DNA of 24,663 bases from a virus, in IMG/VR virus record IMGVR_UViG_3300017739_000104, positions 1-24,663 of that record. One strand, 5' to 3'. The notes under the pieces are model-generated. The model had not been told where the DNA came from. It saw only the letters and a list, made by a program, of their open reading frames with translations, and did not search any database. The translations under genes were made by a program, and so were the position numbers. Within the stretch, counting starts at the first letter, position 1. Every line of letters starts with the position of its first letter. Positions 4,481 to 7,616 of the stretch are shown one piece after another.

Positions 4481-4849
4481 ATGCAAAGCAACGGTCTTAC
4501 AAGCAAACAAAAGAAACTGGTTGATACAATCGTAGCAACTGATTGTTCTATTAAAAAAGCATCAGAAGAAGCTGGATATAGCAAAGGTGAAAGTGGTAGA
4601 GTTACTGCTACAAAGACTTTGAGACTACCACATGTGCAACAGTATATGATGCAGTTAGTTACACAAAGCATAGGATTAAATGCTACGAAAGCTTTGAGAA
4701 GGATAATGCACCTATCAGACAATGCTAAGAGTGAATATGTACAGCTTGAAGCAAGCAAAGATATACTAGATAGGGCTGGTTATAAAGCACCAGATAAGGT
4801 AATGCATAGCCATGTAGGTAACATCTCTGTCAACATAGACCTATCGTAA
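4481..4849 (+). CDS. terS: Terminase small subunit
   Basis: The 122-residue protein has the pattern of small terminase subunits of the Terminase_2 kind: an opening LTSKQKKLVD (6-15), a helix-turn-helix SIKKASEEAGYSK (23-35), a TLRLPHVQQYM segment (47-56) and a C-terminal LDRAGYKAPDK (96-106). It would recognise phage DNA and load the large subunit for packaging. ATG 4481 is preceded closely by AAAGGGAGAG, a short spacing. It follows the small membrane gene and is separated from the next clear gene by 187 bases, in which I see only a 13-codon frame (ATG 4905) and an ATATG-A-CATAT palindrome. Assignment rests on pattern plus position about 1.2 kb upstream of the large subunit gene. Confidence 0.8.
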   Translation: MQSNGLTSKQKKLVDTIVATDCSIKKASEEAGYSKGESGRVTATKTLRLPHVQQYMMQLVTQSIGLNATKALRRIMHLSDNAKSEYVQLEASKDILDRAGYKAPDKVMHSHVGNISVNIDLS

Positions 4850-5036
4850 TAGCTGGGCGTCTGTGTATAGATATGACATATACAAGGCACAGGGGGTCAA
4901 AAGTCATGGCGATAATAGTACAAGAGATACCGTACAAACATTTTTAGTGGAAAAAGCTCTATGAATATATTAACCTACATAAAAGGATTGCTTATGCGTG
5001 TAGCAGTATTAGTATCATCTTTAAGAGGAAGATTGA

Positions 5037-5348
5037 ATGGCAAAGACACCAGCTTGGCAGAGAAAGGCAGGGAAGAATCCAAAGGGAGGACTCAACGCAA
5101 AAGGTCGAGCAAGTTACAAGAAGGGAACTCTAAAAGCTCCAGTAAAGTCAGGGGACAACCCAAGAAGGGCAAGCTTTCTGGCAAGAATGGGGGGAATGCG
5201 AGGACCGGAAAAGGATTCAAAGGGACGACCAACTCGACTCCTTCTCAGCTTAAGAGCATGGGGAGCATCGAGCAAAGCCGACGCAAAGAAGAAAGCCGCG
5301 GCAATAAGCAGACGAAACAAAGCAAAAAAACTTAGAAAGAAAGGATAA
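5037..5348 (+). CDS. Highly basic protein (DUF6321-like)
   Basis: A 103-residue protein beginning MAKTPAWQRKAGKNPKGGLN, with a central RRASFLARMGGMRGP and a lysine/alanine-rich tail. About one third of residues are K or R against four acidic ones. The opening and the MGGMRGPEKDSKGRPTR part match a family very common in marine phages (DUF6321 from memory), whose function is unknown. AGAGGA lies seven bases before ATG 5037. The gene is richer in G+C than the structural genes (31/60 at 5161-5220) and strongly purine-biased on the + strand. Another frame (4961-5335) is open across it. Nucleic-acid binding is the obvious inference from charge. Confidence 0.82.
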   Translation: MAKTPAWQRKAGKNPKGGLNAKGRASYKKGTLKAPVKSGDNPRRASFLARMGGMRGPEKDSKGRPTRLLLSLRAWGASSKADAKKKAAAISRRNKAKKLRKKG

Positions 5349-5352
5349 CATC

Positions 5353-5493
5353 ATGCCTATGGGAAAAGGAACGTACGGATCTAAGAAGGGAAGACCGCCA
5401 GCAAAGAAGAATGGTTCTGGTATGACAGCAAAGCAGAAGACTCTACCAAAGAACCTTCAAGCTAAGATAATGGCTTCTAAAAAGAAAAAGTAA
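5353..5493 (+). CDS. Very basic 46-residue protein without acidic residues
   Basis: ATG 5353 to TAA 5493, with AAAGGA eight bases upstream inside the previous gene's end. The product starts MPMGKGTYGSKKGRPPAKK and ends in four lysines. I count 13 K, 1 R and no D or E. Low complexity and the KGRPPAKK stretch recall AT-hook and protamine-like peptides. Small proteins of this form occur beside terminase genes in marine phages, function unknown. The stop overlaps the next ATG (TAATG). Its clear ribosome site and coupling on both sides support a real gene. Confidence 0.7.
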   Translation: MPMGKGTYGSKKGRPPAKKNGSGMTAKQKTLPKNLQAKIMASKKKK

Positions 5494-5657
5494 TGGCAGT
5501 TAATGCGGCTGGAAACTATACGAAACCTAAGATGAGGGCATCGCTCTTTCGTAGGATAAAGGCTAGTGGCAAGGGTGGGAATCCTGGGCAATGGTCTGCA
5601 CGAAAGGCACAGATGTTAGCCAAGCAGTATAAAGCTAAAGGTGGTGGATATACCTGA
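5493..5657 (+). CDS. Basic 54-residue protein without acidic residues, marine-phage family
   Basis: ATG 5493 overlaps the upstream stop (TAATG) and TGA 5657 overlaps the next ATG (TGATG). The protein starts MAVNAAGNYTKPKMRASLF and carries GGNPGQWSARKAQMLAKQYK near its end. The P-x-x-R-x-x-L-F and PGQWSARKAQ-L-A-K-Y-K pattern is a conserved small family I recall from many marine phages, unnamed and without known function. It has 8 K, 4 R and no D or E. It is likely to bind nucleic acid or another acidic partner. Confidence 0.75.
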   Translation: MAVNAAGNYTKPKMRASLFRRIKASGKGGNPGQWSARKAQMLAKQYKAKGGGYT

Positions 5658-5905
5658 TGGCATTAGCAAAGAGCCAGAGAAGTCTTAAGGCATGGAGTCG
5701 TCAGAAATGGAGAACCAAATCTGGCAAACCCTCACTACAGACTGGCGAGAGATACCTCCCAGAGTCTGCAATTAAATCTTTATCTGATGCTGAATACAGA
5801 GCCACAACTCGGAAGAAAAGGGCGGCAATGCGTAAAGGTAAACAAGTTGCCAAACAACCCAAGAAGATTGCAAAGAAGACAGCATCCCATAGAAAGTTTA
5901 CATGA
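5657..5905 (+). CDS. Basic 82-residue protein (DUF5872-like)
   Basis: It starts at ATG 5657 within TGATG and overlaps the next gene by ATGA. The SLKAWSRQKWRTKSGKPS opening, TGERYLPESAIKSL and TTRKKRAAMRKGKQ blocks match a family frequent in marine phage genomes, which I believe is DUF5872. The name is from memory. Only four acidic residues are present against many K/R, concentrated in the C-terminal 35 residues. Function is unknown; together with its neighbours it forms a run of basic proteins directly upstream of the terminase. Confidence 0.78.
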   Translation: MALAKSQRSLKAWSRQKWRTKSGKPSLQTGERYLPESAIKSLSDAEYRATTRKKRAAMRKGKQVAKQPKKIAKKTASHRKFT

Positions 5906-6102
5906 GTTTTTTAAACACTCTTAAACCTGAAGAGCATAGGATGCTTCGTCAAATGGTAAGAGATATACACTTCCAATACTTTGATGAAAAACATGGAGCC
6001 TCCTTCATTACCAATAAAATGTTAGATAATATTATTGAGGTTCAAGGTAGAGAAGCTATAGAAAAATTATTGAAAGCTGGGATTGATAAAGGTCTGAGAT
6101 GA
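5902..6102 (+). CDS. Small helical protein upstream of terminase
   Basis: The 66-residue protein is coupled by ATGA overlaps on both sides. Unlike the basic genes before it, it has balanced charge and looks like three helices: PEEHRMLRQMVRDIHFQYF, NKMLDNIIEVQG and REAIEKLLKAGIDKGLR. I have seen similar small proteins before the large terminase in marine phages but know no function. A terminase accessory role is possible from position only. Confidence 0.72.
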   Translation: MSFLNTLKPEEHRMLRQMVRDIHFQYFDEKHGASFITNKMLDNIIEVQGREAIEKLLKAGIDKGLR

Positions 6103-7616
6103 AGTTTGCTTACAAACCTGATGGCAAAATTCTAAAAGATTTTATGAAGGACAATAGTTTTTTCCGTGGCGTTCGAGGTCCAGTTGGTTCTGGTAAATCT
6201 GTTGCGTGTTGTGTTGAGTTATTTAGAAGAGCCTTAGAGCAGAAGCCTAACAATGAGGGAATACGAAAATCACGCTGGTGTGTTATAAGAAATACCAATC
6301 CGCAACTTAGAACAACAACAATAAAGACTTGGCTAGATTGGTTTCCAGAAAGTGAATGGGGAAAGTTTCATTGGTCTGTTCCTTACACTCACCACATACA
6401 GATGAATGATCTCGACCTCGAAGTAATATTTTTAGCACTCGATAGACCAGAAGATGTAAAGAAACTTCTTTCTCTCGAACTTACTGGCATTTGGATAAAC
6501 GAGGCAAGAGAGATACCCAAGAGTATTATTGATGCGTGTACTATGCGTGTTGGTAGATTTCCAAGTATGCGAGAGGGTGGTGCTAGCTGGTCTGGTGTTA
6601 TCTGCGATACCAACGCACCAGAGGAAGATCATTGGTGGGCTATTATGGCTGGAGAAGTTCCTATCCCAGATCACATACCAAGAGAGCAAGCAGTAATGTT
6701 AGTTAAACCTGAGAACTGGAATTTTTATGTTCAACCTTCTGCAATGACAGAAACTAAGAATGAAAAGGGCGATGTTGCTGGATATAAGATGAACCCAAAG
6801 GCTGAGAATAAAAGCAACATTATTCAAACATATTACCCAAATATTATTAACGGCAAGACTAAAACATGGATTGATGTTTATGTAATGAACAGGCTTGGAA
6901 CAATACAAGAAGGTAAGCCAGTATATCCAGACTTTGTATCAGATACGCATCTTGCTGAAGAAGAGATACCAATTGCTATTGGGGTTCCTCTATACATTGG
7001 AATTGACTTTGGATTAACTCCTTCTGCTGTTTTTGGACAAAAGGTTCGAGGTCGATGGTTAATACAGTCTGAGATTGTAGCAGTTGATATGGGTATAGTT
7101 CGCTTTGCAGAGTTACTTAGACAAGAGATAGCAACACGTTTTTCTGGTCTTGATGTGTATATTTATGGTGATCCAGCTGGTGACTTTAGGGCGCAGACAG
7201 ATGAGTCTACTCCTTTTCAGATTATGAGAGGTGCTGGATTAAAAGCAGTACCAGCTCCAAGCAATAGTGTTGATCTTAGGTTAGAGTCTGTTTCTTCTCA
7301 ACTTACTAAAATGTCAGATGGGAAACCAGCATTCATGATAGATAGACGATGCCCTACTCTTATTAAAGGATTCCAAGGTGGCTACTGCTATAGAAGAATG
7401 CAAGTGTCTGGGGAGAGATATGATGATAAACCTGAGAAAAATATGTATTCTCATTGCCATGATGCCTTGCAATATCTAATGCTAGGTGCTGGAGAAGGAA
7501 GAAGTTTGATGACTGGTCAGCAACCAATCAAAGCGTTCAACGCAAGAAAAGGCTTTGATTTATTTAAAAGACCTAGTATTAGTAGAAATAGTGGTTCTTT
7601 TTGGAATAGATTATAG
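6099..7616 (+). CDS. terL: Terminase large subunit
   Basis: The 505-residue packaging motor has both expected domains. ATPase: Walker A GPVGSGKS at 27-34; Walker B GIWINEA at 130-136, with E135 as the likely catalytic glutamate; a DTNAP coupling-type motif at 169-173. Nuclease (RNase H-like): D302 in IGIDFG, D357 in YGDPAG and D454 in HCHDALQY, which would bind the two metals. It cuts concatemeric DNA and pumps it through the portal using ATP. The asparagine before the catalytic glutamate is a common phage variant of the usual aspartate. ATG 6099 overlaps the upstream stop. Length and motif order are normal and the gene looks intact. Confidence 0.96.
   Translation: MKFAYKPDGKILKDFMKDNSFFRGVRGPVGSGKSVACCVELFRRALEQKPNNEGIRKSRWCVIRNTNPQLRTTTIKTWLDWFPESEWGKFHWSVPYTHHIQMNDLDLEVIFLALDRPEDVKKLLSLELTGIWINEAREIPKSIIDACTMRVGRFPSMREGGASWSGVICDTNAPEEDHWWAIMAGEVPIPDHIPREQAVMLVKPENWNFYVQPSAMTETKNEKGDVAGYKMNPKAENKSNIIQTYYPNIINGKTKTWIDVYVMNRLGTIQEGKPVYPDFVSDTHLAEEEIPIAIGVPLYIGIDFGLTPSAVFGQKVRGRWLIQSEIVAVDMGIVRFAELLRQEIATRFSGLDVYIYGDPAGDFRAQTDESTPFQIMRGAGLKAVPAPSNSVDLRLESVSSQLTKMSDGKPAFMIDRRCPTLIKGFQGGYCYRRMQVSGERYDDKPEKNMYSHCHDALQYLMLGAGEGRSLMTGQQPIKAFNARKGFDLFKRPSISRNSGSFWNRL

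Follow-up and report, generated by a model that had tools for sequence, protein, structure and literature searches.

Small basic proteins in phages and other viruses

The internal proteins of phage T4 are basic, bind DNA at low salt, occur at ∼300 copies each per head and are ejected at infection (PMC9026906). Basic virion proteins of a Chlorella virus have been proposed to neutralise the packaged viral DNA; for phages, the same paper notes a prevailing view that cations and polyamines, not proteins, do this (PMC3281028). In marine phage genomes, many small basic proteins are annotated just as ‘hypothetical’ and have been given no role. Some belong to domain families already known in Pfam and PHROGs, without function. 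One such family, DUF6321, was neither mentioned nor given a function in the limited open-access literature that we searched. Another, DUF5872, also appears in a published listing for CpV-BQ1, an algal giant virus (PMC12085832).

Here we describe a cassette of small basic genes in a marine podovirus. Like T4 IPI–IPIII, it encodes small basic phage proteins, and relatives of these proteins are reported in virions; however, the cassette is far more conserved than the T4 internal proteins. We found no Pfam or PHROG match to the named T4 internal proteins, a comparison that could miss fast-evolving families, and the capsid-targeting propeptide of the T4 proteins would not be expected in a T7-like podovirus. 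The likeness to the Chlorella virus proteins is one of basic charge, with no homology shown. The phages concerned are among the commonest in the ocean. One recurring unit, together with virion reports, turns these DUFs into a testable hypothesis on DNA-binding head proteins.

A run of basic genes between terS and terL

The window, as we call the whole stretch of DNA analysed, is a 24,663-base virus record. Its cassette genes and their landmarks are as follows.

4481–4849, + strand: terS, terminase small subunit, the upstream landmark (Pfam PF03592, 3.5e-8; phrog_2538, 4.5e-12)
5037–5348, + strand: P1, 103 aa, a DUF6321 domain by sequence (aa 12–75) and a predicted basic C-terminal helix (Pfam PF19846, 3.9e-21; phrog_4689)
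5353–5493, + strand: P2, 46 aa, GTYG..KGRPP (AT-hook-like), then a helix-like KQKTLP tail (homologues, composition)
5493–5657, + strand: P3, 54 aa, distantly related to the N-terminal half of DUF5872 (phrog_17747, 4.7e-29; hhalign)
5657–5905, + strand: P4, 82 aa, distantly related to the C-terminal half of DUF5872 (phrog_14910, 1.2e-34; hhalign)
5902–6102, + strand: P5, 66 aa, near-neutral and outside the basic set (net charge +1; found at 54/54 loci)
6099–7616, + strand: terL, terminase large subunit (phrog_2, 6.6e-21; 65% identity to Pelagibacter phage Hodr)
7919–9505, + strand: portal or head-tail connector (T7-type), the downstream landmark (Pfam PF12236, 2.6e-91)

The P1–P4 open reading frames (ORFs) overlap or abut one another between terS and terL. 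An earlier sequence-only reading had described four consecutive small K/R-rich genes of 103, 46, 54 and 82 residues, and ORF coordinates and composition both agree with it. That reading also had the genes joined by TAATG and TGATG overlaps, which holds for P2/P3 (TAATG) and P3/P4 (TGATG); P1 and P2 are separated by a 4-nt gap and do not overlap. The one further small gene that it placed before terL is P5, which shares ATGA overlaps with both P4 and terL. An ORF at 4961–5335, overlapping P1, has no family match in Pfam or PHROG and was set aside as an overlap artefact. Hodr (EXVC031P) is the isolate nearest to the window, with a 65% identical TerL, and a SAR11-type host for the window phage is therefore likely.

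Net charges counted from the translations are +28, +14, +12 and +21 for P1 to P4, with K+R contents of 31%, 30%, 22% and 31% and pI values of 11.1–12.0. Neither P2 nor P3 contains a single D or E residue, as had been noted for the two middle proteins. Per residue, P1–P4 carry +0.22 to +0.30, compared with −0.10 to +0.04 for the 16 other window genes checked. In related loci, 7.5% of 4,382 roughly called ORFs reach at least +0.2 per residue; runs of four basic ORFs were observed 10 times there against ∼0.1 expected given independent charges, an expectation with a biased background because these loci were fetched for holding the cassette. Across 55 distinct loci the charges of P1, P3 and P4 are positive in every case examined (means +0.22, +0.22 and +0.24 per residue; minima +0.15, +0.18 and +0.17).

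P1–P4 are under purifying selection and behave as translated genes. Median dN/dS against the window sequence is 0.10 for P1, 0.28 for P2, 0.15 for P3 and 0.18 for P4, comparable to 0.09 for TerL and 0.22 for TerS; all of these values are rough because synonymous sites are near saturation.

Conservation of the cassette

We compared 54 related loci, mostly from IMG/VR, each with a full-length TerL homologue and no less than 2.5 kb of sequence ahead of it. P1 is present in 51 of them, P2 in 31, P3 and P4 in 49 each, P5 in 54 and terS in 51, with a few overlapping contigs counted twice. The exact order terS-P1-P2-P3-P4-P5 occurs in 27/54 loci and the same order minus P2 in 16. Of 46 adjacent P3/P4 pairs, 32 have a 1-nt or 4-nt overlap; elsewhere there are insertions of further small ORFs, many of them likewise basic. 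P4 is present in 16 of the 17 phage records with P3, and P3 in 17/17 with P4, counting the Hodr fusion (see next section). This synteny bears out the proposal of a conserved set next to the packaging motor, with most of its members coupled. Absence of the set outside the window genome had been named as one finding that would refute it, and the set proves to be conserved.

P2 is the most variable in presence. It has no Pfam match, and its homologues occur in HTVC022P and in cyanopodoviruses, where they are unannotated. The AT-hook core is R-G-R-P flanked by basic residues, whereas the window P2 core reads K-G-R-P-P. Among 47 distinct P2 homologues, 20 contain a GRP core and 15 contain [KR]GRP. 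P2 may be an AT-hook-like peptide, but with K in place of the first R of the core. In P-SCSP1 phages, which are cyanopodoviruses (e.g., OM416765, 11293–11340), unannotated P2-like frames are found in the space separating the capsid and DUF6321 genes.

Family identity and domain fusions

P1 matches DUF6321 (PF19846) over the entire profile (positions 1–72 of 72) with 75.9 bits against a cut-off of 28.5, and by this measure it is a DUF6321 member; the family name suggested earlier was right for P1. The domain is free-standing with a basic tail in P1, and forms the C-terminal domain of 165–839 aa proteins in cyanomyoviruses. The suggested likeness to DUF5872 (PF19197) holds at a distance for P3 and P4. 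P3, P4 and the Hodr P3-P4 fusion have no DUF5872 match at the Pfam gathering threshold, but profile-profile alignment pairs P3 and P4 with the two halves of phage proteins that do score for DUF5872. On these alignments P3 and P4 are best described as distant relatives of the DUF5872 halves, not as members, with the halves encoded as separate genes in the window. DUF6321- and DUF5872-type proteins were found across marine phages, in keeping with the suggestion that such families are common there. In cellular genomes, DUF6321 has 66 matches in 84,980 genomes, mostly on short MAG contigs, which we read as viral sequence. The label ‘RecA-like recombination protein’ on Greip gp45 (L007:3876-4127) and on a protein of MinM2 (L010:5001-5246) was rejected; the domain matches are to DUF6321 only, and the label looks like a propagated misannotation.

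Domains that are separate peptides in the window are joined elsewhere. Hodr and six other loci encode a single P3-P4 fusion protein, and a 310-aa freshwater phage protein (L129:7374-8306) carries DUF5872 (3.7e-16) and DUF6321 (2e-24) on a single chain. In hhalign comparisons, P3 pairs with the middle domain of this protein (92%, E 5.8e-7) and P4 with its first domain (E 1.5e-4); against the corresponding domains of a cyanomyovirus protein the values are E 7.2e-5 for P3 and E 2.4e-5 for P4. Eight profiles were compared in all, and apart from same-family pairs every remaining combination gave E > 0.01. The link of P4 to the fusion-protein domains is weaker than that of P3, and part of its support is that the pairing is consistent.

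The cyanomyovirus proteins of ACG-2014d, ACG-2014f, S-E7, Syn33 and S-SM1 share the order P4-like, P3-like, DUF6321. In S-SM1, Syn33 and S-E7, the three with cluster notes, the fusion protein is T4-GC 119. T4-GC 119 of T4-like cyanophages unites on one chain of 400–530 aa (839 aa in ACG-2014f), with extra linkers, three domains of kinds that the window encodes as separate peptides. Its gene follows gp16 (TerS) and, wherever gp17 (TerL) was covered, precedes it. Both kinds of fusion suggest that the pieces form one functional unit. We did not find this split and fused relation, its recurrence at the terminase locus or its link to virion proteomes described in a limited open-access search of the literature.

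Predicted structures

Protamines are short, Arg-dominated, unstructured chains. The cassette proteins had been called protamine-like, a description that fits their charge alone. Lysine and arginine are mixed in P1–P4, with Arg contents of just 2–15%, and folded domains are predicted for both P1 and P4, which argues against unstructured protamines. AlphaFold models P1 (pLDDT 90.7, pTM 0.76) as a small helical domain followed by a long basic helix. In a model of the P3-P4 fusion, the P4 part has a pLDDT of ∼91 and the P3 part is not confident. By composition and predicted fold, then, P1–P4 do not qualify as protamines.

The predicted folds have no recognisable counterpart in the PDB. Foldseek returned no match with E < 0.001 for P1 or the P3-P4 fusion model, and the best VIA-align Z scores against the PDB (2.7 for P1 and 4.2 for the fusion) indicate no meaningful match. 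A PDB sequence search likewise gave nothing credible, its matches being designed proteins over 11 residues. A viral structure library held unnamed relatives only, besides one non-significant match (E 6) to a 517-aa virion protein of S-SCSM1, equal in length to gp29 of that phage (see below).

Genomic setting in other phages

The cassette domains occur in phages of SAR11, Roseobacter, OM43, SAR116 and cyanobacteria, frequently near a terminase. In the cyanomyoviruses ACG-2014f, ACG-2014d, S-SM1, S-CREM2, S-SZBM1 and S-SCSM1 they lie between gp16 (TerS) and gp17 (TerL); in S-E7 and Syn33 the protein is encoded one gene after TerS, and TerL is outside the fetched stretch. P1, P3 and P4 adjoin a terL of another type in Methylophilales phage MEP401, and the fusion gene of a freshwater contig lies immediately downstream of terL. 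TerL profiles fall into four groups with no cross-group matches: the window type, the MEP401 type, the CRP/HMO-2011 type, and the cyanomyovirus and freshwater TerLs, which match each other. A TerL of one of these types, always on the same strand, lies within 6 kb at 23/62 and 39/60 P1 loci and at 21/55 P4 loci (a set that partly repeats contigs of the first P1 set). These counts are lower bounds, as they cover these terL types only and many of the loci are short.

The proposed adjacency to the packaging motor therefore applies to the window clade and to several phage groups, but not to all carriers. HTVC034P, HTVC035P, Lederberg and Greip have the genes far from terL, at the end of the late/lysis region and with a DnaA-like gene as neighbour. 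The genes lie beside lysozyme and amidase genes in HTVC033P, between scaffold and capsid in HTVC022P, and between capsid and tail-tube genes in P-SCSP1. The shared setting is the late module, of which the terminase is a frequent neighbour. The gene position suggests late expression, and the scaffold/capsid and capsid/tail-tube placements support a late, head-stage role. Infection RNA-seq exists for HTVC022P and HTVC027P (PMC12753301).

In HMO-2011 (L012:8665-11026), the P4 and P3 homologues flank a gene annotated as methanesulfonate monooxygenase. In the terS–terL interval of S-SZBM1, gp194 (L337:18253-20376; 707 aa, net charge +65) has a SAM-lyase-type domain (PF23780, 6.8e-8) and is possibly anti-restriction cargo.

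Relatives in purified virions

Virion proteomics had been proposed as a check, and published mass spectrometry places relatives, though not the window phage’s own proteins, in purified virions. S-CREM2 gp137, encoded between terS and terL, contains DUF6321 at residues 415–488 (3.5e-10) and was detected in the virion proteome with 4 unique peptides and 4.1% coverage (PMC10665884 Table 3); these peptides may fall outside DUF6321. S-SCSM1 gp29, likewise in the terS–terL interval, contains all three domains (DUF6321, 3e-22) and has the GenBank label ‘virion protein’. This label is used 48 times in the whole S-SCSM1 record, compared with 45 published virion proteins (PMC9602691), and terS and terL do not have it, which indicates that the labels track detection closely, not exactly. 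The DUF6321 protein of S-SZBM1, gp192, is not on the list of that phage’s virion proteins (PMC9146016), and the S-SM1 record calls the homologue hypothetical, without a virion flag. Reports of the DUF6321 protein in virions thus cover two of four cyanophages. Short K/R-rich proteins are easily missed with trypsin; conversely, free basic proteins could stick to virions during purification. Among the titles listed in a search on HMO-2011-type phages and pelagiphages, none was a virion proteome of a cassette-bearing podophage, and a limited open-access search found no work joining pelagiphages with lysine-rich proteins.

Possible functions

The cassette proteins probably bind phage DNA during or after packaging. 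We give about an even chance to a more specific proposal, made by analogy, that they are a late DNA-binding set of the head and packaging stage that works like the T4 internal proteins. P1–P4 would be expressed late as small, folded, strongly basic domains, would bind the phage’s own DNA at the packaging or head stage, coating or condensing it as it enters the head, and would remain in the virion as minor internal proteins. In the podovirus the domains would act as separate, translationally coupled peptides; in T4-like cyanophages three of them (P4-like, P3-like and DUF6321) would act on one chain encoded in the terS–terL interval. DNA as the ligand, a location inside the head and the carry-over from cyanophages to the window phage are our extrapolations from charge, gene setting and the virion reports. 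Weighing against this proposal, P1 and P4 lack a PDB fold match, virion evidence covers two of the four cyanophages, and the cassette is far from terL in several pelagiphages.

It is unlikely, though worth serious consideration, that the proteins act solely in the cell as accessories of packaging or late replication and never enter the virion. They might condense concatemers, clear host nucleoid DNA or aid TerS/TerL loading, as would suit genes between terS and terL and in the terminase neighbourhood of several phage groups, and their going unreported in two of four cyanophage virion proteomes. However, relatives are reported in two purified virions, and sites beside lysis or capsid and tail genes need no terminase role.

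We consider it quite improbable that the proteins are packaged mainly for ejection along with the DNA, so as to target the new host by anti-restriction or take-over, like T4 IPI. The presence of relatives in virions, the strongly basic SAM-lyase-domain protein gp194 in the S-SZBM1 terS–terL interval, the variable membership of the cassette and the extra basic ORFs of relatives would all be compatible with such cargo. But the core domains are strongly conserved across hosts, whereas the T4 internal proteins are poorly conserved (PMC9026906), and we found no homology to a known inhibitor in Pfam or PHROG. A role as RNA-binding or ribosome-directed late proteins is very doubtful: the composition resembles that of small ribosomal proteins, and P2 and P3 lack acidic residues, but there is no ribosomal or RNA-binding match in Pfam or PHROG, and the late-module location and virion reports point elsewhere. 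Finally, although over-calling does happen with very short genes, it is hardly credible that the basic ORFs follow one another by chance or are reading frames that go unused, given the purifying selection on P1–P4, the Pfam and PHROG family matches and the conserved gene order.

A broader conjecture, which we regard as rather unlikely, is that DUF6321 and the two DUF5872 halves are modular, virus-wide genome-binding domains that have been shuffled, split and fused among marine tailed phages unrelated to one another, DUF5872 being present in algal giant viruses too. They would both form a kind of chromatin at the packaging stage and act as a DNA-tethering tag by which larger proteins are brought into the head. 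If true, this would contradict the usual view that tailed phages rely on cations and polyamines only.

Other genes of the terS–terL interval

Several further proteins share the interval. P5 is its most constant gene (54/54 loci), lies directly upstream of terL throughout the clade, and has no convincing family match. Some relatives encode a 51-aa basic, His/Lys/Met-rich family (L026:3092-3247, L053:5751-5906 and L001:4298-4453; motif KHHT.KHM..M...M..G.SFT..HK.A.KK.GK) between P3 and P4, or ahead of both where they are fused. Others have a basic protein of 270–300 aa between P1 and P3 (L173:4033-4893, L170:6927-7811 and L180:914-1738), with a net charge of +0.13 to +0.17 per residue and a shared KKYG.THN.DG.P motif. 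In S-SZBM1, the gene directly after terS encodes gp195 (L337:20378-20641), a near-neutral protein of 87 aa with no family match, which has the third-highest emPAI (2.66) in the published virion proteome.
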